Shown in pieces: positions 12,780 through 26,480 of a stretch of DNA of 64,000 nt. The translations under genes were made by a program, and so were the position numbers. Source of the DNA: Saccharothrix ecbatanensis (lineage in GTDB: Bacteria > Actinomycetota > Actinomycetes > Mycobacteriales > Pseudonocardiaceae); assembly GCF_014205015.1 (NCBI RefSeq), contig NZ_JACHMO010000001.1, forward strand, positions 186,001 to 250,000, written 5' to 3'. Numbering within the stretch: the first letter of the stretch is position 1; each line of letters starts with the position of its first letter. The notes beneath the pieces were generated by a model. It saw only the letters and a program-made list of their open reading frames with translations, was not told where the DNA came from and searched no databases.

Positions 12780-13331
12780 TCAGCGTCCCAACGGGATCTC
12801 GAAGTGGACGGTTTGGAAGGTAATCGGGTCGCCGTCACGGGCGTCGTGCACCTCCTCGGCCACCGACCGCCAGAACGGCTCGGCCCCCGCGATACGGGTG
12901 TCGGTGTGCAGGTACAGGTTCCGATACCCCGGCGTGTCCGCCACGAACGCCGTCGCCATGTCGACCAAAGCCCGCGCCAACCCGGACCGACGGTGATCGG
13001 GTCGCACGTACACCCGGAAAAGTTGCGCAGTAGTGGGCTCCGGGTAACGGGCCGCCAGCCAAGCCGGATGCGGTGGGCTGGAAGGCGCCGTCGCACGCAC
13101 ACCAGTGGTCGCCACCACCTCGTCGCCCTTCACCGCCACGAACAACGCGTGCCGCGAAGGCCGCACGTACGCACCCTGCAGATCGATCACGTCACCGTGC
13201 CATTCCGGCCGATACCCGTAGCCGAACTCCTGGTAGAACGTATCCAGCATGACACTGCGCGCCCCCGGCAAATCAGCCGCACGCGCCCGACGGACCTCAT
13301 AGGGCCCCACTTCACGGTGGTACTCGGTCAT
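12780..13331 (-). CDS. GNAT family N-acetyltransferase
   Basis: A 183-residue acetyltransferase. The acetyl-CoA loop is RVYVRPDHRRSGLARALVDMA (about residues 110-130), a standard motif A. The start overlaps the stop of the ABC ATPase by four bases, so it is the last gene of the long operon that begins at 24218. In a metallophore setting it might acetylate the product, or the free chelator for self-protection; the substrate cannot be read from the sequence. A truncated near-identical piece of this gene lies at 9649-9823. Confidence 0.85.
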   Translation of the reverse strand: MTEYHREVGPYEVRRARAADLPGARSVMLDTFYQEFGYGYRPEWHGDVIDLQGAYVRPSRHALFVAVKGDEVVATTGVRATAPSSPPHPAWLAARYPEPTTAQLFRVYVRPDHRRSGLARALVDMATAFVADTPGYRNLYLHTDTRIAGAEPFWRSVAEEVHDARDGDPITFQTVHFEIPLGR

Positions 13332-14797
13332 GTCCTCTTCTCCTCTGTTCCTTCCATCGCTCGACCCAACAGGCCGATGGTCACCGGGTGCGTGGGGGCG
13401 CCCAGCACGTCGCCCGCCGCACCGTGCTCGACAAGTTCTCCTTGGTGCAGCACCGCGACGCGGTCCGCCAGCCGCGCAACCACGGCCAGGTCATGGCTGA
13501 TCAGCACCAAAGTGCACGTCAACGCCGCAAGCTGGTCCAACAAACCAGCCTGCGTCAACGTGTCCAAACCGGACGTGATCTCGTCGCACACCAGCACGTC
13601 CGGCCGGGCGAGTAGCGCGCGCACCAAAGCGGCCCGCTGCAACTCGCCACCCGACAACCCCGCAGGTCGACGCGCCACGGTCTCCGAGTCCAGCCCCACG
13701 GCCGCCAACTCGGCCAGAGCCAACGCGCGAGCATCAGCCACGCCGCCCAGCCGCACGGCAGTCCGACTGACCTGGTCCAGCACCGTCCGATAAGCATCGA
13801 ACGACGCACGAGCGTCCTGGAACACGTACTGCACAGCAGCCAACTGCCCCCGCGAACGCCGTCGCAACGACCGGGGCAGCGGCCGGCCGTCGAGCAGCAC
13901 CTCCCCGTCAAACGTGGGGTGCAACCCGGCGATGCACCGCGCCAGAGTCGTCTTCCCACTCCCGGACCGACCCACGACAGCAAGCCGCTCACCCGCCCCG
14001 ACCCGCACATCAACGGAACGCAGCACAGTCGTGGACCGGTGCCGGGCGGAAAGTGAACGGGTCTCCAGCCGAGGCGAAGCAAGCCCACGCGCAGTCGGAA
14101 CAGTGACGCGGGGCTGGGCGGCGACCAAAGCGGCCGTGTAAGGGGAACGGGGACGTGAGAGCACGTCAGCCGTAGACCCCGCCTCCACCACCTGACCCGC
14201 ACGCAGCACCACCACCTCATCCGCCAACGCGCGCACCACGTCCAAGTCATGCGTCAGCAGCACCAGAGCAACTCCCTGCGCCACCACCGACGCCAGCTCG
14301 TCCACCACCTCCGCCCGCGTAATCGGGTCCTGACCGGTAGTGGGCTCGTCCGCGACAAGAACCGCCGGATCACCCACCAGCGCCTGCGCCAACACCACCC
14401 GCTGCTGCTGCCCACCGGACAGCTCATGCGGATACCGCCGCAGCAACTCCACCGGCACCCGCGCCCGACGCAACGCGGTCGAGATCAACGAATCAGGAAC
14501 ACCCGGGTGCAACGCCGCGATCTCCCGGAACACACCCCCCAACCGCCGCACCGGGTTCAAAGCGGCCGACGGCTGTTGCGGCACGAACGCGACCCGCCCG
14601 GTCACCGTGACCCGCCCGCTCACCGACACCCCCGGCGCGTGCTCCCCGAGCAACGCCAACCCGGTCGTCGTCTTCCCGCTACCGGAGGCACCCACCAAAG
14701 CGACCACCTGCCCGGCGGACAAAGCGAAGCTCACCCCGTCGACCAACGTGTGAGACCCCGCCACCGCACGCAGACCCTCGACATGCACGACAGTCAT
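13328..14797 (-). CDS. Opp/Nik-type ABC importer, fused two-domain ATPase
   Basis: A 489-residue protein with two complete ABC domains in one chain. Domain 1: Walker A GASGSGKTT near residue 38, signature LSGGQQQRV, Walker B VLVADEPTT. Domain 2: Walker A GRSGSGKTT near residue 300, signature LSGGELQRA, Walker B VLVCDEIT. This equals a fused DppD-DppF pair, which power peptide and nickel importers. ATG at 14797 overlaps the permease stop by four bases. With two permeases and one binding protein next door it completes a full importer. Confidence 0.92.
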   Translation of the reverse strand: MTVVHVEGLRAVAGSHTLVDGVSFALSAGQVVALVGASGSGKTTTGLALLGEHAPGVSVSGRVTVTGRVAFVPQQPSAALNPVRRLGGVFREIAALHPGVPDSLISTALRRARVPVELLRRYPHELSGGQQQRVVLAQALVGDPAVLVADEPTTGQDPITRAEVVDELASVVAQGVALVLLTHDLDVVRALADEVVVLRAGQVVEAGSTADVLSRPRSPYTAALVAAQPRVTVPTARGLASPRLETRSLSARHRSTTVLRSVDVRVGAGERLAVVGRSGSGKTTLARCIAGLHPTFDGEVLLDGRPLPRSLRRRSRGQLAAVQYVFQDARASFDAYRTVLDQVSRTAVRLGGVADARALALAELAAVGLDSETVARRPAGLSGGELQRAALVRALLARPDVLVCDEITSGLDTLTQAGLLDQLAALTCTLVLISHDLAVVARLADRVAVLHQGELVEHGAAGDVLGAPTHPVTIGLLGRAMEGTEEKRT

Positions 14798-15564
14798 GCC
14801 CGAGCCTCCGCCCGCAGCGCACGGTCGAACACCAGGTTCAGCCCCACCGACAACGCCACGATCAGCAACGCCGGCACGACCACCGCCCACGGCTGGAGGA
14901 ACAGCCCCACCCGGTTCCGGTCGACCATGACCGCCCAGTCCGCCGCATCCGGCGCCACCCCCACCCCCAGGAAACTGGCCGACGCCACCAGATACAGCGC
15001 ACCGGTCAGCCGCACGCCCGAGTCAGCCGCCAACGTCCGCAGCATCGACCGTCCTGTGTAGACGATCGACGTCCGCCACCACGTCTCGCCCTGCAACCGC
15101 ATCGCCTCCAACGCCGGACGCCCGGAGATCTCCAACGCCGAAGCCCGCGAAATCCTTGCCACATCAGGAAAGTTGACCAGCGCAACCACCAGGACGAGCA
15201 CCGACAGACCCGGCCCGGCAATGGCCGCCACCAGGATCAGCACGAGCAGCGACGGCACCGCGAGCAGCAGGTCCAGCGGCCGCATCAGCACCTCGTCAAC
15301 GATCCGAACCCGCGACATGGCCGCCACAACGCCCCACGGCACGCCCACCAGATAAGCGAGCAACGTCGCCAGCAACGCGACCAACACCACCGTCTGCCCA
15401 CCCGCGAGCACCTGGTGCCACACGTCCCGGCCCACGAAATCCGTGCCCAACGACGAGTTCGCCACGAACGGCGCCCCGCGCGTCAACGAATCCGGCACGA
15501 ACAACGGCCCGAGCAGCGCCAACGCCAACGGCACCACGACGAGCAGCGCACCGACGCCCCTCAT
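14794..15564 (-). CDS. Opp/Nik-type ABC importer permease (DppC-like)
   Basis: A 256-residue inner-membrane permease with five to six spans. It has the DppC-type start (FVPDSLTRGAPFVANSSLGTDFVGRDVW, the LGTDxxGRD motif) and the coupling-helix loop ISRASALEISGRPALEAMRLQGETWWRT. It overlaps its neighbours by four bases on both sides. Together with the DppB-like permease it forms the membrane channel of the importer encoded in this operon. Confidence 0.9.
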   Translation of the reverse strand: MRGVGALLVVVPLALALLGPLFVPDSLTRGAPFVANSSLGTDFVGRDVWHQVLAGGQTVVLVALLATLLAYLVGVPWGVVAAMSRVRIVDEVLMRPLDLLLAVPSLLVLILVAAIAGPGLSVLVLVVALVNFPDVARISRASALEISGRPALEAMRLQGETWWRTSIVYTGRSMLRTLAADSGVRLTGALYLVASASFLGVGVAPDAADWAVMVDRNRVGLFLQPWAVVVPALLIVALSVGLNLVFDRALRAEARA

Positions 15565-16505
15565 GCGATCGCCACCGATCGCGGCGCGAGCCGGAACACC
15601 ACGAGGTCGGCGACCAGGTTCACCACCACCGTGGTGACCGCGAAGACCACCGCCAAGCCCTGCACCACCGGCAGGTCACGGCCCGCGACCGCGTCCACCA
15701 GGATCGTGCCCAGGCCGGGAATGACGAACACCGCCTCGACCACGATCACACCGCCCAACAGCCAATCAACAGTCCGCGCCACCTGCTGCACGGCCGGCGC
15801 CAAAGCGGACGGAAGCGCGTGCGCGAACCGGACTCGCGTCACACCGATCCCCAGCCGAAGGGCGTGGCGGACGTGGTCCGAGGCCAGCGCGTCGATCATC
15901 CCCGCCCGCACCAACCGGCTGATCGAGCACAACGGCCGGGCCACCAGCACCACCAGCGGCAGCACCAGCACGGCCGGTGAAGCCAACAGGTCCGCCCCCA
16001 CCGCCGTGGGCGGCAGCCACCGCAACTGCACCCCGAACACCGCGATCAGCACCACGGCCAGCGCGAACTCCGGGATCGAGTGCAGGCCCACGGTGACGGT
16101 CGTGACCACCCGGTCCAACGGCCCGCCTTCACGCAACGCCGCCAGCACACCGAGCAGGACCGACAACGGGATCAGCAGCACCAAGGCCAGCAGCGCCAGC
16201 ACGAGCGTCGGCCCGAGCCCGTCGTGCAGGAACTCGGCGACCGGTCGACCGGAGAACAGCGACACCCCGAAATCGCCGTGCGCCAGCCCCCACAGCCACG
16301 AGCCGAACCGGTCCAGCGCGGGCCGGTCCAGCCCCATCGCGACCCGGATCTCCTCGATCCGGCGCGGGTCCGGGTTGTCGCCCGCCAACGCCACCGCCGC
16401 GTCCCCTGGCAACGCCTGCACCAGCAGGAACACCACGGTTACGACGGCGAGCACCTGGATCACGCCGATCGCCAGCCGCCGAAGAGCGTACCGGCGCAGG
16501 CTCAC
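15561..16505 (-). CDS. Opp/Nik-type ABC importer permease (DppB-like)
   Basis: A 314-residue permease with about six spans. The start MSLRRYALRRLAIGVIQVLAVVTVVFLLVQALPGD is the typical DppB/NikB leader, with PGDAA following. The coupling motif is ARPLCSISRLVRAGMIDALASDHVRHALRLGI. GTG at 16505 overlaps the stop of the binding protein. A longer frame upstream is not supported. Confidence 0.9.
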   Translation of the reverse strand: MSLRRYALRRLAIGVIQVLAVVTVVFLLVQALPGDAAVALAGDNPDPRRIEEIRVAMGLDRPALDRFGSWLWGLAHGDFGVSLFSGRPVAEFLHDGLGPTLVLALLALVLLIPLSVLLGVLAALREGGPLDRVVTTVTVGLHSIPEFALAVVLIAVFGVQLRWLPPTAVGADLLASPAVLVLPLVVLVARPLCSISRLVRAGMIDALASDHVRHALRLGIGVTRVRFAHALPSALAPAVQQVARTVDWLLGGVIVVEAVFVIPGLGTILVDAVAGRDLPVVQGLAVVFAVTTVVVNLVADLVVFRLAPRSVAIA

Positions 16506-18040
16506 CCCAACCACACCTTGTCGAACCGCGCCCAGTCGAGCGTGTTCGCGGGCGCGGTGGAGATGCCGCCGACGTTGGGCGCCGCGCCGACGATCCAGTC
16601 CGCGAAGCCCCACATCAGGTAGCCGCCCTCGGCGTGCAGGGAACGCTGCATGTCGCGGTAGACCGACGTGCGCTCACCAGCATCCACAGTAGACACCGCG
16701 CGGTCGTAGAGCGCGTCGAACTCCGGCCGCGCCCACTTGGTCACGTTGGTGCCCGAACCGCTCAACAGCCGCTGCGCGATGTGCGTCTCGATCGGCATCG
16801 CACCGGACCGGAAGCTCGACATGGACCCGTTCTTCAGCGTGTCGGCCCAGTAGCTGTCCTTGTTGCCGGTGACCACCTCGATGGTCAGCCCCGAGCCCTT
16901 GACCTGGTCGGCGAACACCGTGGCCGCCTCCACCATCCCGGCCGCGGCGGTCGACGTGTCCAGCTTGACCGTCAGCCCCTCGGCACCGGCCCGGCGGATC
17001 AGGAACTTCGCCTTGTCCAGGTCACGCGTGCGCTGCGCGATGTCGTCGGCGTAGTGCTGGTAGCCCTTGCCGAACAGGTCGTTGCCCACCTGCCCCGCGC
17101 CCGCGAGCACCGACTCCACCAACTGCGGACGGTCGGCCAGCAGGAACATCGCCTCGCGCAGGTCCCGGTTGTCGAACGGCGGCCGGTCCACCTTCATCGC
17201 GAACGCCTGCACGGCGCTGTTCGGCGCACGGTGGATCGCCAGCCGGTCACTGCCGCTGTGACTGCGAGCGGTGGTCGGGGTCAGGTCGTGCGCGTACTCC
17301 ACCTGCCCGCCGAGCAGCGCGTTCGTCCGCGCCGACTCCTCGTTCGCGATCACGAACTCCAGCTCGTCCAGGTGCGGCGCGCCCTCCCAGTACTCGGCGT
17401 TGCGCTTGAGCAGCACCGACTTGCCGGGCTCGAACGACACGAAGCTGAACGGCCCGGAGCCGACCGGCGCCGTGAAGTCCTCGGCCCCGGCGGGCACGAT
17501 GTACGCGCCGAACGCGGCCAGCACGTTGGGGAACTCCACGAACGGCCGCTTCAGCGCGAACTCCACCGTCCGGTCGTCCACCGCACGGCTGTTCGCCAGA
17601 TCGATCAACGCGAGGCTGGACTTGGCCCGGAACGCGCGGTTCGAGTCGAGGATGCGGGCGTAGCTGGCCAGCACGTCCTCCGCGCGCACCGGCTGGCCGT
17701 TGTGGAACGTGGCCTCACGCAGGGTGATCCGCCAGCGGGTCAGTGCGGCGTCCGGTTCCCACTTCTCGGCGAGTCTGGGCTGCGCCGAGACATCCGGACC
17801 GAGGTCGGCGAGCTTGTCGTACAGCGCCTTGGACCGCGCGGCCTCCACGAACAGGTTCGCCAGGTGGGGGTCCAGCACTTCCTTGGCTCCGCCGCCCGCG
17901 AACGCCGCACGCAGCCGTCCGCCGGCGCGGGGCGTGGAAGGGGCGGACGTCTGGGCGCCGGTGGTGCCGCACCCGGTGAGGGTGGCGATCGAGAGACCGG
18001 CGGTGAGGCCGAGGAAGCCGCGGCGGTTGAGGGAGTGCAT
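16502..18040 (-). CDS. Family 5 substrate-binding lipoprotein of the Opp/Nik-type importer
   Basis: A 512-residue extracytoplasmic binding protein (SBP family 5, like OppA, DppA and NikA). The signal peptide has a twin-arginine motif (NRRGFLGL) and a lipobox TLTGC with the lipid-bearing Cys at residue 24. Conserved features include WEPDAALTRWRITLREATFHNGQPVRAEDVLASYARI and VGSGPFSFVSFEPGKSVLLKRNAEYWEG. It starts 21 bases after the methyltransferase stop, with GGAAGGAA before the ATG. NikA-like proteins of this family can bind metal-chelator complexes, which fits the Zur-type box at the operon front. Confidence 0.92.
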   Translation of the reverse strand: MHSLNRRGFLGLTAGLSIATLTGCGTTGAQTSAPSTPRAGGRLRAAFAGGGAKEVLDPHLANLFVEAARSKALYDKLADLGPDVSAQPRLAEKWEPDAALTRWRITLREATFHNGQPVRAEDVLASYARILDSNRAFRAKSSLALIDLANSRAVDDRTVEFALKRPFVEFPNVLAAFGAYIVPAGAEDFTAPVGSGPFSFVSFEPGKSVLLKRNAEYWEGAPHLDELEFVIANEESARTNALLGGQVEYAHDLTPTTARSHSGSDRLAIHRAPNSAVQAFAMKVDRPPFDNRDLREAMFLLADRPQLVESVLAGAGQVGNDLFGKGYQHYADDIAQRTRDLDKAKFLIRRAGAEGLTVKLDTSTAAAGMVEAATVFADQVKGSGLTIEVVTGNKDSYWADTLKNGSMSSFRSGAMPIETHIAQRLLSGSGTNVTKWARPEFDALYDRAVSTVDAGERTSVYRDMQRSLHAEGGYLMWGFADWIVGAAPNVGGISTAPANTLDWARFDKVWLG

Positions 18041-18061
18041 GGTCGATTCCTTCCAGTGACG

Positions 18062-18862
18062 TCAGGGGCGGAGGCGCGCGACGAGGTGCAGCCGGTCTCC
18101 GGACAGGTCCTCGCTCAACTCGGCGTCGGCGGTCCACGGCTCGTCGGTGCGCGGCCCCGGCGAGTCGAACAGGGCGATCACGTCGAATCCGGCCTGGTCC
18201 AGCACGTGCCGGAGTTCCTGCGGGAACAGCAGCCGCCACGCCGAGCGCTGCACGAGCGGCTGGGCGCCCGGCCACCACCACTCGCGCCGACGGCGCAGCA
18301 ACTGGGCGGCGTGGTCGATCCAGAGCCGGGTGTGGGAGGTGTACGAGACGCCCTCCCAGACGACGGTGCGGCTGCGGGTGCCGTCGAGCAGCTCGGTGTT
18401 GCCGAGGAAGAACGCGCCGTTGCGCATCTCCGCGACCAGCAGCCCGCCGGGGGAGAGGTGGTCGCGGCAGCGGCGCAGGAAGCCGTCCAGGTCGGCGTTC
18501 GTGTGGCAGTACAGCAGCGCGCTGTCCAGGCACGTGATCACATCAAAGCGTTGACCGAGCGAGAACGTCCGCATGTCGCCGAGCACGAACGTGACCGCCG
18601 GGTGGTGCTCCCGTGCGTACTCGACCATCCGCTCCGAGCTGTCCAGCCCGACCACGTGGTAGCCCAGACCGGCCAGGTGACCGGCGTCCCGGCCGGTGCC
18701 GCAGCCGACGTCCAGCAGGTCACCGGACCGGCCGCCGAACCTGGTCACGACGTCGTGCGTGAACCGGGCGGCGACGTGGTCGGGATCGGGGAACTGGTGC
18801 TCGTAGAGCGCGGGGTTGTCGGTCAGCAGGTTCTCGCCGGCCGGGTTGTCGTACAGCGTCAT
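18062..18862 (-). CDS. Class I SAM-dependent methyltransferase
   Basis: A 266-residue methyltransferase with the SAM-binding motif I DVGCGTG (51-57), the acidic end of strand 2 (VVGLDSS) and LGDMRTFSLGQRFDVITCLDSALLY for motifs II and III. Residues 45-150 form the Rossmann core. ATG at 18862 overlaps the MFS stop; the much longer open frame upstream runs antisense to nothing known and is rejected. In this operon it may methylate the small-molecule product, on N, O or C. Confidence 0.9.
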   Translation of the reverse strand: MTLYDNPAGENLLTDNPALYEHQFPDPDHVAARFTHDVVTRFGGRSGDLLDVGCGTGRDAGHLAGLGYHVVGLDSSERMVEYAREHHPAVTFVLGDMRTFSLGQRFDVITCLDSALLYCHTNADLDGFLRRCRDHLSPGGLLVAEMRNGAFFLGNTELLDGTRSRTVVWEGVSYTSHTRLWIDHAAQLLRRRREWWWPGAQPLVQRSAWRLLFPQELRHVLDQAGFDVIALFDSPGPRTDEPWTADAELSEDLSGDRLHLVARLRP

Positions 18863-20040
18863 CGGGCCACCTCTCGCTTGACGGTCAGCACGCCGCGTCG
18901 GTGCAGCCAGGCCACCGCCACCGCGCAGCCGACCCCGACCGCCACGCACAGCAGGGACGCCAGCCAGCCCGACCAACCGAACACCCAGCCGATGGCCGCG
19001 TTGCCCACAGCCGCCGCGACACCCGAGACCAGGTAGAACACGCCGAAGTACGTGCCCGCCAAACCGGTCCGCCCGAACTCCGGGATCAGGTCGTAGACGA
19101 ACGGCTGCGCGATCATCACGCCGACCGACAGCAGCAGCGCCGCGACCAGCACGGGCGTGATGCCGCCGAGCGGACCGACGTGACCGACCGCCGTCGAGAC
19201 GAACCCCGCCCCCATCACCGCGAGCCCCAACGCGATCGCCCGGCCGCGCGCCACCCGCTTCAACCACCTCGTGATGCGCACCTGGAACAGCAGAGTGGCC
19301 ACAGTGGACACCAGGAACACGGCAGCGACGGCGAGCGCGGAGTCCGTCAGCCGCTGTGCCTCCAGTGGCAGCACCAGGTAGAGCTGGTTCTGGAGGACGA
19401 ACATGCCGGTCAGCGCACCGGTGAACGCCAGGAACCGGCGGTCGGCCAGGCACTCTCGCCAGTCGTCCAGCACGGTGCCCTGACGCGGCGCGGCCGGACG
19501 GGCGGGCAGCACGGCTGCCTGCACGACCGTCAGCACGGCGAAGATCCCGGACGCCACCAGCGCCGCGATCCTGAAGTCCCACAGCATCAGCAGGCTGCCC
19601 AGCAGCGGACCGGTCAGCGCACCGGCCTGCCCGTAGAGGTTGAACAGCGCGAACGCCCCGGCCCGGTCCTCCGACTCCTCGGCGATGTAGGCGCGTACTG
19701 CGGGGTTGAACAACGCACCGGCCAGTCCACTGAGGACGGACGCGGTCAGCAGCACCGCCACCGACCCGCCCGCCGCGAACAGCCCGAACCCGATCGCCCG
19801 GACCGCGCAGCCCGCGATGATGACGCGACGCGGCCCGAGCCGGTCGGACGCCGAGCCGCCGAGCAGGAACAGCCCCTGCTGGCTCAACGTCCGCACGCCG
19901 AGCACCAGACCGATCGTCGCCACCGACAGGCCGAGGTCGCCGAGGTGCGTGGCCAGGTAGGGGATGAGCAGGTAGAAGCCGGTGTTCACGCCGAACTGGT
20001 TGACCAGCAGCACGCGCACCGACAGCGGGAAACGCTTCAT
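18859..20040 (-). CDS. MFS transporter, candidate exporter of the operon product
   Basis: A 393-residue major facilitator protein with 11-12 membrane spans. The loop 2-3 motif reads GGSASDRLGPRRVIIAG, as in drug and siderophore exporters, and the inside loop after span 8 is RVARGRA. It starts at 20040, four bases inside the epimerase stop. Staphylopine-type systems also pair a MFS exporter with an Opp/Nik importer, so export of a chelator is a reasonable guess. Confidence 0.88.
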   Translation of the reverse strand: MKRFPLSVRVLLVNQFGVNTGFYLLIPYLATHLGDLGLSVATIGLVLGVRTLSQQGLFLLGGSASDRLGPRRVIIAGCAVRAIGFGLFAAGGSVAVLLTASVLSGLAGALFNPAVRAYIAEESEDRAGAFALFNLYGQAGALTGPLLGSLLMLWDFRIAALVASGIFAVLTVVQAAVLPARPAAPRQGTVLDDWRECLADRRFLAFTGALTGMFVLQNQLYLVLPLEAQRLTDSALAVAAVFLVSTVATLLFQVRITRWLKRVARGRAIALGLAVMGAGFVSTAVGHVGPLGGITPVLVAALLLSVGVMIAQPFVYDLIPEFGRTGLAGTYFGVFYLVSGVAAAVGNAAIGWVFGWSGWLASLLCVAVGVGCAVAVAWLHRRGVLTVKREVAR

Positions 20041-21083
20041 CGCCGCTCAGCCCTGGTGGGCACGTCGCCGAGACCGGGCACGTCGCCGAGACCGGGCACG
20101 ACGCCGAGACCGGGCACACCGGACAGCCGCAGCGTGCCGTCATCACCGCCGATACCGGTCCACGGGTCGTCCGCGAGCAGGAGGTGGCCGTCCAGGTCGA
20201 CCCAGCGGGCGTGGCCGGTCAGGTGCACGGCGGGCGCGATGCCGAGCGAACTCGCCACCAGGCAGCCCAGCATCACGTCCAGGCCGGACGCGCGGGCGAT
20301 GTCGATGATCTCGCGGGCGGCGGTGATCCCGCCGCACTTGGCCAGCTTGACGTTCACCCCGTCGACCAGGCCCGCCAGCGCCCGCACGTCGGCGGCGGTG
20401 GCCGCGTCCTCGTCCGCGATCAACGGCACCGGGCACCGTTCACGCAGCCACGCCAGATCATCCCACTGACCTGGTGCGATCGGCTGTTCCAGCGCGTCGA
20501 CGCCGGTGAGCTGGTCGACCACCCGCACGGCCTGCTCGGCGGTCCACCCGCCGTTGGGGTCGAGGATGAGCCGGACGTCCGGCGCGGCGGCCCTGACCGC
20601 GTTGACCGTGGCCACGTCGTGCTCCGAGCCGACCTTGACCTTCAGCACCGTGAACCCGCGTGAGGCCAGGTAGGCGGCCTGAGACGCGGCGTGCGCGGGG
20701 TCGCCGATGCCGATCGTGTAAGCCGTCGGCACGTCCGTCCACTGTGGAACGCCGACGAGCTGGTGCACCGGAATCCCTTGCCGCAACGCCTTCAGGTCGT
20801 GCAGCGCGGTGTCCACGGCGGCCAGCACACCGGGTGGCAGCTCCGGCAACGCCAACTCGGCTGGATCTGCGCATGCGGCCATCACGGGCACCAAGTCCCG
20901 CAGAAGACCCGTGATCCGTTCGACGTCCAGCCCGTAGTACTGGCTCGTCACCACCTCGCCGTGCCCGCGCACCCCATCGCACTCGATCACCACGCGCACC
21001 GCGTCACGCCGGGCCATCACCGACCGCGAGATGCGCAGCGGCGACCGCAACTCCAGCCCGTACACCGTCCAGTCGAGCTTCAC
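20037..21083 (-). CDS. Enolase-superfamily enzyme, dipeptide epimerase-like
   Basis: A 348-residue enzyme of the muconate-lactonizing subgroup. Catalytic and metal-binding residues are all visible: K148 and K150 in LKVKVG, D175 in LDPNGG, E199 in LEQPI, D224 in IADED and K246/K249 in NVKLAKCGG. The pattern fits dipeptide epimerases and N-succinylamino acid racemases, which invert an alpha-carbon through a Mg-bound enolate. GTG at 21083 overlaps the PLP-enzyme stop. The C-terminus carries an odd PGLG repeat tail (see the repeat entry). Beside an ATP-grasp ligase, a dipeptide substrate is plausible. Confidence 0.88.
   Translation of the reverse strand: MKLDWTVYGLELRSPLRISRSVMARRDAVRVVIECDGVRGHGEVVTSQYYGLDVERITGLLRDLVPVMAACADPAELALPELPPGVLAAVDTALHDLKALRQGIPVHQLVGVPQWTDVPTAYTIGIGDPAHAASQAAYLASRGFTVLKVKVGSEHDVATVNAVRAAAPDVRLILDPNGGWTAEQAVRVVDQLTGVDALEQPIAPGQWDDLAWLRERCPVPLIADEDAATAADVRALAGLVDGVNVKLAKCGGITAAREIIDIARASGLDVMLGCLVASSLGIAPAVHLTGHARWVDLDGHLLLADDPWTGIGGDDGTLRLSGVPGLGVVPGLGDVPGLGDVPTRAERR
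20061..20117. repeat. 18-bp tandem repeat at the 3' end of the epimerase gene
   Basis: Three head-to-tail copies of an 18-base unit (about CACGTCGCCGAGACCGGG) encode the C-terminal VPGLG-VVPGLGD-VPGLGD tail. The repeated part is beyond the enzyme barrel and probably a non-essential extension. Confidence 0.85.
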
Positions 21084-22147
21084 GCCGGCACCCCGACTGC
21101 CTTGGGCGCGTACACCGACCGGCACCTGGCCCAGCTGGTGACCTCGATCTCGGCCGTGTCGGCGATCTCGACCGGTCGGTCCTCCGGCGTCCCCAGCAGA
21201 CCCCGTGACCGGCAGAAATCGTCGTCGAAGATGGTGCCGAGGTAGCGGTGCGGACCGTCCGGGAAGATCGTCACCACGGTCGCGCCGGGCTCGACGCGCG
21301 CCACCCACGCCGACACGAGGGCCACTGCCCCGGTGCTCCAGCCGCCGGTGACGAAGCAGTCCCGCGCCAACCGGCGGCAGGCGTCGACCACCTCCACCGG
21401 ACCCAGCCAGTGCACCTCGTCGAACTCCTCGTAGGCGACGTTGCGCGGATGGATGCTGCTGCCGAGCCCACGCATCACCCGTGACCGGGCGGGCTGGCCG
21501 AAGATGGTCGAGCCGACCGTGTCCACGCCGATCAGCCGCACGTCCGGCCAGTAGCGGCGGAGAGCGGTGACGACGCCGGCGCTGTGCCCACCGGTGCCCA
21601 CGCTGCACACCAGCACGTCGGCGCGCTCCACCTGCGCGGCCAACTCCTTGGCCAGACCCGTGTACCCGGCGGGGTTGTCCGGGTTGTTGTACTGATCCGG
21701 CCAGTACGCGCCCGGCAACCCGCGCAGCACCGACCGGAGCCGGTCCAGCCTGGCCTGCTGCCAGCCGCCGGTCGGGTGCGGCCGGTCCACGATCTCCAGC
21801 CGTGCGCCGTGGGCGTGCAGCAGCGCGCGCATCGACGGTTCCAACTCGTGGTCGACCACCAGCACGATCGGGTGCCCCAACGCCTGACCGGCGAACGCCA
21901 ATCCGAGGCCGAGGGTGCCGCTGGTCGACTCCACGACGACCGCGCCGGGACGCAGTTCGCCGCGTTCACGGGCCGCCAGCAGCATCGCGACCGCCGAACG
22001 CGCCTTCATCCCGCCCGCGCTCAGGCACTCCAGCTTCGCCCAGAAACCGCCGTGGCGGTGGGGGAGCGGGGTGTCGATGCGCGCGACGGGCGTGTTGCCC
22101 AGCAAGTCGAGCAGGTAGTGGTTGCGGCGTGGAGACAGCACGGTCAC
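21080..22147 (-). CDS. PLP-dependent cysteine synthase/SbnA-like enzyme
   Basis: A 355-residue fold-type II PLP enzyme. The likely Schiff-base lysine is K48 in AGGMKARSA, the phosphate-side loop is STSGTLG (74-80), and a second glycine loop reads SVGTGGHSAG. It starts LLGNTPVARID like cysteine synthases. SbnA of staphyloferrin B, also from this family, makes a carbon-nitrogen bond by beta-replacement on phosphoserine. Here the reaction is unknown but a beta-substituted amino acid or N-linked amino polycarboxylate is the natural idea. GTG at 22147 overlaps the preceding stop by four bases. Confidence 0.87.
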   Translation of the reverse strand: MTVLSPRRNHYLLDLLGNTPVARIDTPLPHRHGGFWAKLECLSAGGMKARSAVAMLLAARERGELRPGAVVVESTSGTLGLGLAFAGQALGHPIVLVVDHELEPSMRALLHAHGARLEIVDRPHPTGGWQQARLDRLRSVLRGLPGAYWPDQYNNPDNPAGYTGLAKELAAQVERADVLVCSVGTGGHSAGVVTALRRYWPDVRLIGVDTVGSTIFGQPARSRVMRGLGSSIHPRNVAYEEFDEVHWLGPVEVVDACRRLARDCFVTGGWSTGAVALVSAWVARVEPGATVVTIFPDGPHRYLGTIFDDDFCRSRGLLGTPEDRPVEIADTAEIEVTSWARCRSVYAPKAVGVPA

Positions 22148-22974
22148 CCGACCTGTTCGGCTCGGTAGTGGTGCAGGGTGGTCGGGCCGCCGTGCAGCCA
22201 GAAGAACGGATATGGCTCCGCGGACACCGCCGTGACGCCCGAGCCGAGGAACCACGGCACGATCGCGCTCGCGGTCTGGGCGAACACCACGACCGGCCGG
22301 TCGGCGGCGACTGCCTTGCGCAGCAACGGTTCGAAGCTGCCGTTGCCGACCGTCATCCCGGACGCCAGCACCAGATCGCAGTCCGCGACGGCGGCCTCGG
22401 CATCGGTCACGACCGGCTCGTCCCACTCGGTGCGACCGCCCTTGAGGTCGCACGGCACGTACCGCAGGCCACGCGCGCGCAAGTGGTGCAGCAGCGAGTT
22501 CACCACGCCCACGACCAGCACCCGTTGTCCCGGCACGGCGTCCAGCAGGTCGACCACGGCGGACGCCCGTTCCATCGACTTGGCCAGCGAGTCACCTGGT
22601 CCGACGAGTACTTGCCGTGCGGACGACGTCGAGTGCGGGTGCGCGTTCATCAGGTACGCGTCCAGCACCGCCGTGCGGATCGCGGTGTCGGGGTGGGCGA
22701 GCAGGCCCGCGACGCTCTCGCCGACGCAGTCCGTCACGTCCGCTCCCGCCCAGTCGGGCTCGACGGCGCACGATCCGACCGCTTCACCGACTCGCACGCT
22801 GATCACGGTGTTGCGGTACGCACGGCCGCGCGAGACGTGCCGGGCGCCCTGCCTCGTGGTGAACGCGACGCTCACCCGGGACTCGGCCGGGTCCGGACCG
22901 ATCGCTCCCGAACGGGCCAGCTCGACGAGTTCCGTGATGCCGGTCAGGGTGCGACGGTTTGCTTGGGTCGTCAT
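22144..22974 (-). CDS. DUF364-like Rossmann protein (putative heavy-metal chelation family)
   Basis: A 276-residue soluble protein. Its second half (about 150-270) has a Rossmann-like pattern with GQRVLVVGVVNSLLHHLRARG, DCDLVLASGMTVGNGSFEPLL and PVVVFAQTASAIVPWFLGSGVTAVSAEPYPF, which resembles DUF364, described in Pfam as putative heavy-metal chelation; the first half has the RGRAYRNTVISVRVGEAVGS pattern and an acidic-Cys segment. ATG at 22974 overlaps the ATP-grasp stop. Second gene of the Zur-box operon. The biochemical role of this family is not established, which makes its presence between a ligase and a PLP enzyme of interest. Confidence 0.75.
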   Translation of the reverse strand: MTTQANRRTLTGITELVELARSGAIGPDPAESRVSVAFTTRQGARHVSRGRAYRNTVISVRVGEAVGSCAVEPDWAGADVTDCVGESVAGLLAHPDTAIRTAVLDAYLMNAHPHSTSSARQVLVGPGDSLAKSMERASAVVDLLDAVPGQRVLVVGVVNSLLHHLRARGLRYVPCDLKGGRTEWDEPVVTDAEAAVADCDLVLASGMTVGNGSFEPLLRKAVAADRPVVVFAQTASAIVPWFLGSGVTAVSAEPYPFFWLHGGPTTLHHYRAEQVG

Positions 22975-24218
22975 TCCGCGTACCGGACTTCCAGCGTGTT
23001 CACGACCTGTTCGGCCCGTGCCCGCGCGTCGGCGTCCGGTGAGGTGACCATGACGTGGCCGAGGTAGCTGTTGTTGCTGGTCGGCTCGCCCGCGCGGTGC
23101 CCCGCGGGCTTCAGCGCCCAGCCCACCACGTCGGGGTTCGCGGCCAGGGTGTCGACGCCGTCGATCCCGGCCAGCACCCCGGCGTGCGGCGGCAGGAGGA
23201 ACGAGATGGCCGCGCTGCGCACGCCGGTCTCCCGTGCCCGCAGGTCGGGTTGGTGGCCGACGGCGAGCTGGGTGAACACGGAAGGCAGGTCGATGCCGGT
23301 GACGCGGCGGACCAACTCGGTGATCTGGTTGCCCGCCGGGCGCGGGTTGACCTCGATCAGCCGGGGGCCGTCTTCGGTCAGCTTGACCTCGGTGTGCGCC
23401 ACGGCGCTGTCCAGGCCGAGCGCTTCGATCGCCGCCACGGCCGTGTCGATGGCCGCCGCTTGGTCCGTCTTGCTCAAGCGGGCCGGGAACATGTGGCCGC
23501 TCTCCACGAACCACGGGTGTCCGGCCAGGCTCTTGTCCGTCACGCCGATCACGCGCGTGATGCCGTCCACCGTGACCGTCTCCACGCTCACCTCGGGGCC
23601 GACGAGGAGTTCTTCGAGCAGCACGGTCGGCACCCGCTCCTGGCCGCGTGCGTTGACCGGGAACGCCTCCAAGGCCAGGAACGCCTCGCGCAACGCGGCC
23701 TCGTCCCGCACCTCGCGGACGTGCATCCCGGCGCACAGGTCCACCGGCTTGACCACCAGCGGGTAGCCCAGCTCGGCGGCGGCTTTCGCGGTGGCGGGCC
23801 AGTCCTGGGTGAGGCTGAACCGGGGGCCGGGCACGCCCGCGTTACGGGTGGTGGTGCGGGTGAGGTCCTTGCGGTAGGCGCGTTCCACGGCTTGCGGGTC
23901 GGGGCCGGGCAGGTTCAGGTGCGCGGCGACCGTGGCGACGGTGGCCAGGTAGTAGTCGCACGAGGAGATCACCCCGTCGAACGAGAGCACGTCGTGCATT
24001 CGCTCCACATAGGACAGAAGCGCGGGCATGTCGTTCGTCTCGGTCGTGAGCACGTTGTCGGCCGCCAGCAACGGGTGCGGGTGGGACGGTGCGGCGCGCA
24101 GGTAGTGGTGCAGGTCGCGGGTGAGGAAGGAGAACCGGTGGCCGGACTCGTGGATCGCCCGTGGCAGCAGCGAACTCATCGCGCCGACCCAGCTCTCGAT
24201 CATCAACAAGTGCGCCAC
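22971..24218 (-). CDS. ATP-grasp ligase, first gene of the candidate metallophore operon
   Basis: A 415-residue ATP-grasp enzyme. Residues 1-110 form a pre-ATP-grasp domain; the nucleotide-binding lysine lies in LVVKPVD (155-160); EELLVGPEVSVETV follows; and the Mg-binding motif is IEVNPRPAGNQ (288-298). Enzymes of this class join a carboxylate to an amine through an acylphosphate, often making amide bonds between amino acids. GTG at 24218 has a good GGAGGAG site. A promoter with a Zur-type palindrome lies 41-76 bases upstream, and all ten following genes run in the same direction with almost no gaps. Confidence 0.9.
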   Translation of the reverse strand: MAHLLMIESWVGAMSSLLPRAIHESGHRFSFLTRDLHHYLRAAPSHPHPLLAADNVLTTETNDMPALLSYVERMHDVLSFDGVISSCDYYLATVATVAAHLNLPGPDPQAVERAYRKDLTRTTTRNAGVPGPRFSLTQDWPATAKAAAELGYPLVVKPVDLCAGMHVREVRDEAALREAFLALEAFPVNARGQERVPTVLLEELLVGPEVSVETVTVDGITRVIGVTDKSLAGHPWFVESGHMFPARLSKTDQAAAIDTAVAAIEALGLDSAVAHTEVKLTEDGPRLIEVNPRPAGNQITELVRRVTGIDLPSVFTQLAVGHQPDLRARETGVRSAAISFLLPPHAGVLAGIDGVDTLAANPDVVGWALKPAGHRAGEPTSNNSYLGHVMVTSPDADARARAEQVVNTLEVRYAE

Positions 24219-24258: not shown

Positions 24259-24294
24259 TGGTAATCATTATCAGTGTCGTTAGGTTTCCGCCAA
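24259..24294 (-). promoter_or_regulatory. Promoter with Zur-type operator
   Basis: On the minus strand: -35 TTGGCG (24294-24289), 16-base spacer, -10 GATAAT (24272-24267). The 15-bp palindrome TGGTAATCATTATCA (24259-24273) has arms of seven with one mismatch around a central C. It covers the whole -10 element. It agrees with the actinobacterial Zur box (TGAAAATGATTTTCA type) and with the general Fur-family pattern, so repression by zinc (or another metal) is expected. Confidence 0.75.
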
Positions 24295-24327
24295 TTGAGT
24301 GATCTGGCTCACGACCGCGTACGAAAA

Positions 24328-24374: not shown

Positions 24375-26327
24375 TCAGCAGGTGATGGAGGCGGACGCCC
24401 AGTCGGCGTGGTCGGAGTCGTTGCCGTTGCCGCCATCGGTGACCTGGAGGTCGAGCATCCGCACGCCGGTCAGGTCGGCGTCGATCGGCACGGCCGCCGC
24501 ACCGCCCAGCAGGACTGGAGTTGTGGCGAGTTCACGACCGTCGCCCACGACCCGGAACGCCACGCTGCCGCGGCCTTCCTTTTCGTCGTCCACGCCGACC
24601 AACGCGGAGAACTTCGTGCACGCGGCGCCGAGGTAGATCCGCACGGACGAGGTGGCGTGAACGCCCAGGCCGGTGGCGTACTGGACGCCGCCGATGGTGA
24701 TCGTCCGGCCGTCGGCGGCGGATTGCTCGCCGTTGCTGCGATCGCGTTCAACCGGGCCCCATCCGTTGAGTTCGGACACGAACGGGAGTCCGGAGACCCC
24801 GTTGGAGCCCTTGGGCGGCGCGGTGACCAGGGGTGGCGCGATCTCGCTCCAGCGTGCCTGTGTTCCTGCGGTGGTGCGGTAGCCGGCGGCTGCGGTGATC
24901 TTCACGGTCGCGGCGGCCATGATCGGTCGGGCCGTGACGGTCCACGTGGCGGTGAAGCTGCCGCCGGGCCGCACGGATGGCGTCTCGCGCACCGCGCTGC
25001 CGTCGAGCACCCAGCCGTCCGGCACCTGGAGCTGCACCCTGGCCGCCATCAGCGGTGACGTGCCGTCGTTGACCAGGCTGGTGGAGACCGTGAACGGGCG
25101 ATCGGCTTCGACCAGCTCCGGTCCGGTGAGGGTGAAGGAGGTCAGCGGGCCGAGCTTCGCGCCGCCCGTCCACACCCGGTACGTGACCGCGCCGTGTGCC
25201 GGTACTCCGCCGCGGATCGTGCCGGCGCTCGCGTGCTCCTCTTTGCTCCACAAGTCTTTGACTCGGTACGTGCGCGCGGCGGGCAGACCGAGTTCGGCTG
25301 CGGTCGCGCCCACGGCGGCGTTGCTCGTGCCCCGGTTGAGCAGGACTACCGCGACCGAGCCGTCGGACATGCGCTTGGCCCAGACCTCCTGGTCGCCGTC
25401 GTCGCGGACCTTGCGACCCTGGGCGCCGGACCAGTCCTGGTTCACGTCCAGCAGGTCGCGGTTGAGCAGGATGCGCTTGGTCGCGTCGTCCATCGAGCGG
25501 ATGTCGTTGCCCGCGATCAGCGGGGCGTTGAGCACGGCCTACAGGGAGAAGTGGGCGCGGTACTCGGCGTCCGTCATGCCTCCGTTGCCGACTTCCAGCA
25601 TGTCCGGGTCGTTCCAGCCGTTCGGCCCGGCGTACTGCTCCAAGCCGACCTGCTGGTCGAGGATGCCCATCACCGACGTCCAGTTGTCGGAGATGTCGCC
25701 GGTGGTCCGCCACAGGTGTCCGCCGACTTCGCGGCCGAGGCCCTCCCAGGGCTTGTTCTGGCCCCACTCGCACAGGCTGTAGACGATGTCGCGGCCGGTT
25801 TTGCGCAGGGCTTCACCCATCGCGCGGTACCGGTCGAGGGCGGGGCGGTCCTCGTTGAAGCAGTTGTCGTACTTGAGGTAGTCGACGCCCCAGTCGGCCC
25901 ACGTCCGCGCGTCGACGTCCTCGTGGTCGAGGCTGGCGGGGTAGCCCGCGCACGTGTGCGTGCCGGCGGACGAGTAGATGCCGAGCTTCAGGCCCTTGGC
26001 GTGGACGTAGTCGGCCAAAGCCTTGATACCGCCGGGGAAGCGCACCGGGTCGGCTTGAAGTCGGCCTTCGGTGTCGCGTTCGCGGGCCATCCAGCAGTCG
26101 TCGATGTTGACGTAGCGGTACCCGGCGTCGCGCATCCCGGACGACGCGATGGCGTCCGCGGTCTGCCGGATCAGGTCTTCGTTGATGTCGCAGCCGAACT
26201 TGTTCCACGAGTTCCACCCCATCGGGGGAGTGGACGCGAGGTCGGCTGGTGCGGGTTCTGCGATCGCTACCGCGGTGAGGGAAAGGGGGAGCAGAGCGGA
26301 AATGAGCAGCGCTAGGGCACGACGCAT
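24375..26327 (-). pseudogene. GH27 alpha-galactosidase interrupted by an in-frame TAG
   Basis: The whole 651-codon frame is intact except for codon 263 (25541-25539), which is TAG where relatives have TGG: the sequence reads YRAHFSL-stop-AVLNAPLIAGND, and the family has W at that place. ATG at 26327 has AGGAGG six bases upstream; a signal peptide covers 1-24. The GH27 domain keeps the nucleophile D154 (YLKYDNC) and acid/base D242 (NDPDMLEVG). After the stop follow the rest of the barrel, the beta-sandwich, an NEW3-like domain and a C-terminal NPCBM domain. The lack of any other damage suggests a very recent mutation, a sequencing error, or readthrough. Confidence 0.88.
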
Positions 26328-26480
26328 GAACACCCTCCTTGGTGCTCGGAAGCACCGGGAGGTGACCGGCGCCCTGTCGAGTGCGGCGCTGACGCTAGCC
26401 GGGGTGGAGCGGCGTTTTCAAGAGTTAATTTCTAAGTGGTAGTAACTCGGGCGCGGCGTTCGGCGGCGGTCGTCGGCGGG

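Follow-up and report, generated by a model that had tools for sequence, protein, structure and literature searches.

A candidate zinc-controlled metallophore operon of Saccharothrix ecbatanensis with DUF364 and SbnA-like proteins in place of opine or nonribosomal peptide biosynthesis

Introduction

To our knowledge, soil actinobacteria have yielded only a handful of small molecules that bind zinc (coelibactin and ethylenediamine disuccinate, EDDS). In the opine-type zincophore systems, an exporter and a NikA-class ATP-binding cassette (ABC) importer are encoded alongside the biosynthesis genes; [S,S]-EDDS of Amycolatopsis japonicum is an aminopolycarboxylate under Zur control (passages of PMC6103462 and PMC9252823). 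The rules of antiSMASH 7, as given in an excerpt of PMC10320115, include aminopolycarboxylic acid, opine-like and nonribosomal peptide metallophores. Here we describe an eleven-gene operon of Saccharothrix ecbatanensis in which exporter and importer also lie beside biosynthesis genes. With the opine-type systems (staphylopine, pseudopaline) it shares predicted zinc control, an exporter of the major facilitator superfamily (MFS), a NikA-class importer and an enzyme that inverts the stereochemistry of an amino acid. A literature search covering titles and the openings of abstracts of the records listed found no description of this gene set.

The operon lies in a window of 64,000 nucleotides, the whole stretch of DNA analysed, which corresponds to positions 186001–250000 of a 9.69 Mb single-contig genome; coordinates of features are given relative to the window. 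We consider it probable that the operon is a Zur-repressed zinc metallophore system, independent of nonribosomal peptide synthetases (NRPS), with an undescribed enzyme set.

Results

Operon Structure and Gene Families

All eleven genes are on the minus strand and span positions 24218 down to 12780, with start codons of the analyst's choice. In order of transcription they encode an ATP-grasp L-amino-acid-ligase-like enzyme (22971–24218; ATP-grasp_4, LAL_C2), a DUF364 protein (22144–22974; PF04016), an SbnA/cysteine-synthase-like fold-type II pyridoxal phosphate (PLP) enzyme (21080–22147; PALP), an enolase-superfamily dipeptide-epimerase-like enzyme (20037–21083; MR_MLE N and C), an MdtH-like MFS exporter (18859–20040; MFS_1), a class I S-adenosylmethionine methyltransferase (18062–18862; Methyltransf_25), a twin-arginine translocation (Tat)-type lipoprotein of the SBP_bac_5 binding-protein family (16502–18040), an ABC permease of Opp/Nik B type (15561–16505; BPD_transp_1), a second ABC permease (14794–15564; BPD_transp_1), a fused two-domain, NikD/CntD-F-like ABC ATPase (13328–14797; ABC_tran in two stretches) and a GNAT acetyltransferase (12780–13331; Acetyltransf_1). 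Neighbouring genes overlap by 4 nt at nine of the ten junctions, the remaining one, between methyltransferase and binding protein, being a 21-nt gap.

Pfam families were assigned to all 11 proteins and NCBIfam was run on 10; NCBIfam contributed to the naming of the PLP and enolase-type enzymes, the exporter, the first permease and the ATPase, solved relatives to that of the ligase, the PLP and enolase-type enzymes and the methyltransferase, and an AlphaFold model to that of the DUF364 protein. An earlier note, written from the letters of this DNA, had described eleven co-directional genes with nearly all 4-base overlaps and had named their families, and both descriptions stand. Its statement that the operon contains no opine dehydrogenase and no NRPS was likewise borne out: no opine-dehydrogenase or nicotianamine-synthase-like domain occurs in the operon proteins (Pfam, 11 of 11; NCBIfam, 10 of 11), and none of the eleven contains NRPS modules by Pfam. 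A genome-wide search for PF10100 gave zero matches, as did that search's control. The note's full Opp/Nik importer with Tat lipoprotein is present, with the correction that a single polypeptide holds both ATPase domains.

Promoter Box and Regulator

A Zur-type 7-1-7 palindrome, TGATAATGATTACCA (24259–24273, minus strand), precedes the first start codon by 40 nt. At up to three mismatches it has no other match in the window, where shuffled sequences give 0.03. A box matching TGATAATGATTATCA at 12–14 of 15 positions occurs 36–47 nt upstream of the operon in all 17 syntenic relatives (see below); over the aligned upstream regions, mean identity to the window is 93% within the box, compared with 53% over the preceding 60 nt and 54% between the box and the ribosome-binding site. 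In a larger set of 80 loci (see below), three promoters lie too near an edge and one reads N, leaving 76 that are readable; 67 of these contain the box at 11 or more matches of 15, vs. 0.3% of shuffled promoters.

A degenerate pattern built from the boxes of operon promoters, YGRNAAYSRTTNYCR, finds 16 palindromic sites in the organism's own genome and none with the reversed control. Six of the 16 lie at the operon, before one ZnuA gene (two sites), before a second ZnuA gene, at an S14/S18/CobW group and before a FecCD importer. Because motif sites of this genome fall at two znuA genes and at the S14/S18/CobW group, the regulator acting at the predicted operon box is most likely Zur. The genome encodes three FUR proteins and contains, at 9.01 Mb, an ArsR–FUR gene pair, which we take to be the usual SmtB–Zur arrangement. 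A FecCD/FecB importer at genome position 3416774 stands behind a TGATAACGGTTATCA palindrome and is probably another importer under zinc control; rough gene calling at that locus gave no adjacent genes for biosynthesis. Zur targets of S. coelicolor include znuABC, rpsN2, rpsR2 and the COG0523 gene yciC (part of PMC6103462). Two Zur motifs appear in a portion of PMC5472717, namely tGaNNatSatNNtCa (S. coelicolor, chromatin immunoprecipitation) and TGaNAANNNTTNtCA (znuA of 17 actinobacteria), and TGATAATGATTACCA agrees with both except at one position, where it has C in place of the T on the right-hand side.

Upstream of the Zur-type box by about 25 nt, a GTGA-N6-TCAC palindrome (24299–24312, minus strand) occurs in 14 of 18 promoters, where shuffling expects 0.1% per promoter, and in 9 of 77 readable promoters of the 80-locus set, all of them from Saccharothrix by record name. 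The palindrome, which the earlier note does not mention, is, we presume, Crp-like, and co-control by Crp/cAMP through this predicted site is possible.

Conservation of the Gene Set

Sixty genomes, including the organism's own, were searched, and 25 have a DUF364 protein; the first comparison set comprised 25 DUF364 loci, contributed by 24 relatives. Seventeen of these loci show synteny across all eleven genes, and in the other eight DUF364 belongs to a different cluster. The second set consisted of the best 80 of 575 DUF364 relatives from named actinobacterial genomes and was therefore selected by DUF364; it covers Saccharothrix, Umezawaea, Lentzea, Actinokineospora, Streptoalloteichus, Micromonospora, Actinoplanes, Nonomuraea, a Frankia and many Streptomyces, and it includes the loci of at least 11 of the 17 syntenic relatives. 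With presence defined as at least 60% coverage and at least 44% identity, all ten non-GNAT genes are present in 68 of the 80 loci. Among the biosynthesis genes, the ligase and DUF364 are found in 80, the PLP enzyme in 79, the enolase-type enzyme in 78 and the methyltransferase in 73; among the transport genes, the exporter is found in 76, the binding protein, the second permease (14794–15564) and the ATPase in 72 each, and the first permease (15561–16505) in 71. GNAT is in line in 36 loci, and a further 18 have it upstream in divergent orientation (54 in total). Gene misses coincide with contig ends in five loci (L107, L124, L135, L140, and L141), L092 contains runs of N, L111 reads as broken pieces, and in L093 the methyltransferase is the sole missing gene. 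These counts show the genes to be kept together as one unit, beyond what chance would give.

Zinc genes lie near the cluster in three of the 80 loci (L065, L076, and L100): L065 has a whole ZnuA gene (85% identical) about 5 kb away, and CobW is close by in L076 (80% identical) and L100 (57%). A ZnuA fragment occurs in L066.

These data bear on two further statements of the earlier note. The metal-box promoter on which it had based zinc control is upheld by the box counts and by the motif sites at znuA and S14/S18/CobW; homologous clusters consistently lacking the box, which it had named as evidence to the contrary, are not what the 17 relatives and the 76 promoters present. Its logic of synthesis, export and re-import agrees with the synteny in both sets.

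Individual Enzymes and Transporter Parts

The ligase scores 71.7 against ATP-grasp_4 (cut-off 27) and 62.6 against LAL_C2 (cut-off 29.4), and its closest solved structure is the L-amino acid ligase BL00235. Its top NCBIfam match is the N-terminal part of PRK02186, a model named argininosuccinate lyase; the ligase itself has no lyase domain. Among the matches listed for the ligase and epimerase families, NCBIfam cut-offs were not reached. For the enolase-type enzyme the top NCBIfam match is the N-acetyl-D-Glu racemase DgcA, below the equivalog cut-off (246.8 vs. 400), as are the matches to Ala-Glu epimerases (162.9 vs. 343 and 140.2 vs. 500). Dipeptide epimerases are among its closest solved relatives, and KvK, LDPNG, EQP, ADEDA, KlAKCGG, and DLDGH are retained in 80% or more of 72 rows; the conserved positions are KxK, the metal ligands D, E and D, then K and DLD. 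The DxD motif presumably binds the amino group of the dipeptide, and we assume the accepted roles for the catalytic lysines and metal ligands.

The DUF364 protein scores 42.3 bits against its Pfam family (cut-off 23), and its AlphaFold model aligns across nearly the whole chain with PDB entries 3npg and 3l5o. These family proteins have the same two-domain fold; the fixed position beside a PLP enzyme distinguishes the operon protein from them. Among the 120 listed of 2094 DUF364 proteins, the database names are limited to "Rossmann-like", "DUF364", "hypothetical", "uncharacterized", and "putative heavy-metal chelation", and in other settings the family has been linked to metal transport (PMC2954201, section 3.3).

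The PLP enzyme retains the PLP lysine and the TSG loop and has SbnA as its nearest relative of solved structure, with a score below the cut-off of the SbnA equivalog TIGR03945 (251.3 vs. 349.95 bits). No SbnB (PF02423) gene occurs in the operon, and the genome's two PF02423 matches lie elsewhere, each adjoining an SbnA protein that exceeds the cut-off (380.2 and 368 bits); these SbnA–SbnB pairs are at genome positions 4046187–4048106 (4.05 Mb) and 921115–923080 (0.92 Mb). Since two above-cut-off SbnA proteins adjoin SbnB-type genes elsewhere, the organism has the classical diaminopropionate pair, which the operon does not use. One of the pairs sits among genes that, on reading the sequence, resemble polyketide biosynthesis genes.

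The closest solved relatives of the methyltransferase are sugar N,N-dimethyltransferases, with N-methyltransferases of ribosomally synthesized and post-translationally modified peptides lower in the list. The binding protein, of Nik/Opp class, has an N-terminal RR motif and a lipobox (both found by eye). Importer parts score highest in NCBIfam against nickel systems (NikA, Opp1B/2B, and NikD), and Cnt models appear among the operon's matches.

A Second DUF364 Cluster Type

In the eight remaining loci of the first set (among them L010, L012, L013, and L015–L018, of which L013, L017, and L018 are close kin), DUF364 stands beside a different PLP lineage, 26–32% identical to that of the operon. 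Its partners there are FecCD (7 of 8), MFS (6), an MTS-type methyltransferase (5), FecB (4), GHMP kinase (4), CobW (4), and Fur (1). L011 is mixed, having the second PLP type together with a Nik/Opp importer 46–51% identical to the operon's. A score matrix made from the boxes of the first type finds a site in all eight loci, each scoring above all 15 shuffles of its locus; some of these box-like sites, not all, are near gene starts. Five Streptomyces DUF364 loci of a phylum sample were classed as three of type I, the operon's type, and two of type II (L158 and L159). In the loci examined, DUF364 and a fold-type II PLP enzyme are the constant part, and the ligase and epimerase are confined to type I.

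Neighbouring Genes

A GH27-like alpha-galactosidase gene, named by reading its sequence, adjoins the operon (24375–26333, minus strand) and is interrupted by an in-frame stop at 25539–25541, both pieces being in one frame. A gene for a secreted TAP-like hydrolase, named in the same way, is divergent upstream in 14 of the 80 loci, including L088. No family matched in an Rfam scan.

Discussion

Proposed Mechanism

When cytosolic zinc is low, Zn-Zur would leave the box and the operon would be transcribed. The SbnA-like enzyme may catalyze a beta-replacement in which an amine nucleophile is added to an activated serine, and DUF364 may act on or with the product to give a carboxylate-rich non-protein amino acid. 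This would be coupled to another amino acid by the ATP-grasp enzyme, one alpha-carbon of the resulting dipeptide would be inverted by the enolase-type enzyme and the ligand would be N-methylated by the methyltransferase; a ligated, epimerised product fits the pairing of ligase and dipeptide-epimerase-like enzyme. The MFS protein would export the ligand, and the lipoprotein, two permeases and fused ATPase would re-import its zinc complex, with GNAT probably serving an accessory step, either modification or unloading of the ligand. Zinc control and the make–export–reimport logic are supported by the conserved predicted box, the motif sites at zinc genes and the conservation of the gene set; that the product binds a metal, and that this metal is zinc, we infer.

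DUF364 and the fold-type II PLP enzyme would be the core common to the second cluster type. We see about an even chance that the two are central to NRPS-independent zincophore biosynthesis of a class not yet recognised, in which the DUF364 protein, perhaps with an adenosyl or NAD cofactor, would be a new enzyme that replaces SbnB. Type I of such a class would combine a dipeptide ligase, an epimerase and Nik/Opp import; type II would have the different PLP lineage, the MTS-type methyltransferase, GHMP kinase in some cases, and FecBCD import. The GHMP kinase could provide an O-phospho-amino acid to the PLP enzyme.

Alternative Explanations

The ligase is closest to dipeptide ligases and the enolase resembles dipeptide epimerases, so that the two might build a modified dipeptide serving as a peptide antibiotic or antimetabolite under zinc-starvation control, with the MdtH-like efflux protein and GNAT for self-protection and the ABC importer taking up peptides. 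We regard this as unlikely, given the Nik/Opp importer within the operon, kept in 71–72 of 80 loci, the Zur-type control and the link of DUF364 to metal transport (PMC2954201). Dipeptide epimerases and Opp importers often serve peptide catabolism, and DgcA is the enolase's top match; a system that takes up and breaks down foreign chelates or D-dipeptides and makes nothing, its PLP enzyme acting as a lyase and its epimerase and GNAT as catabolic enzymes, is nevertheless very improbable, as the first gene of the operon encodes an ATP-dependent ligase in all 80 loci and the exporter is retained in 76, both of which argue for synthesis.

The ligand might also serve another metal (nickel, cobalt, or copper) or answer to another Fur-family regulator. 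7-1-7 boxes are common to several Fur-type regulators, the genome has three FUR proteins and the importer is nearest to nickel systems; the motif, however, is found in this genome at two znuA genes and at the S14/S18/CobW group, and we consider this explanation quite unlikely.

Several points weigh against the preferred reading, a zinc metallophore system. Its basis is computational (operon structure, protein families, synteny, and the Zur-type box), and from these we infer the chemistry, including a putative step for DUF364, to which no reaction has been assigned. Many of the 80 loci are close kin, so that their counts are not independent. Nine of the 76 promoters match the box at fewer than 11 of 15 positions, and those of L089, L097, and L100 match at 11 yet are poor palindromes. 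The plain 15-mer at three mismatches is less clean than the degenerate pattern (12 forward and 10 reverse sites vs. 2 and 7 in the control). For ten of the 16 sites in the organism's own genome, a link to zinc is not evident (nine inspected, one not), and of the other six, one is the operon itself and one belongs to a FecCD importer with no assigned cargo. Against the CntA model, whose cut-off is 800 bits, the binding protein scores 55.4. Most or all transport genes are missing despite further sequence in L104, L127, L128, and L138; L128 (Actinoplanes sp. NBRC 103695) has the ligase, DUF364, PLP enzyme, enolase and GNAT only, with no exporter, methyltransferase or importer within 10 kb.

Among 392 sampled Streptomyces genomes, 171 match the DUF364 profile and 97 the ligase (E ≤ 1e-100), all 97 falling, by eye, within the 171. 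Should the zinc metallophore reading hold, about a quarter of Streptomyces species would carry the system, perhaps overlooked since it has neither an NRPS nor an opine gene to give it away. DUF364, without a known reaction since a structure appeared in 2010, would then gain a testable substrate, and a DUF364 gene that adjoins a PLP enzyme gene and is preceded by a Zur box would become a search signature.

Comparison with Known Systems

Opine-type zincophore systems have nicotianamine-synthase-like and opine-dehydrogenase genes; the operon has neither and in their stead has an ATP-grasp ligase, DUF364, an SbnA-like PLP enzyme and an enolase-type epimerase. The claim of the earlier note that the operon copies opine metallophores such as staphylopine is sound for transport and regulation and not for the biosynthetic families, which differ. 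The first and fourth genes belong to the families of the L-amino acid ligases (BL00235) and the dipeptide epimerases. From the SbnA–SbnB pair of staphyloferrin B the operon differs in that its PLP enzyme, structurally closest to SbnA, falls below the SbnA cut-off and has no SbnB neighbour. The clusters for EDDS and ethylenediaminesuccinic acid hydroxyarginine (EDHA), with their aes genes, presumably share an SbnA-like PLP step with the operon, and the ligase's match to PRK02186, the model named argininosuccinate lyase, is a further point of likeness. Compared gene by gene, with passages of PMC9252823, PMC10702961, and PMC8914351 as a source, the operon differs from them in having no SbnB and no lyase domain and in having DUF364, a dipeptide epimerase and a methyltransferase in addition. 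The operon thus parts from both the staphylopine and the EDDS systems in the biosynthetic steps that define them, and it resembles both in regulation and traffic.

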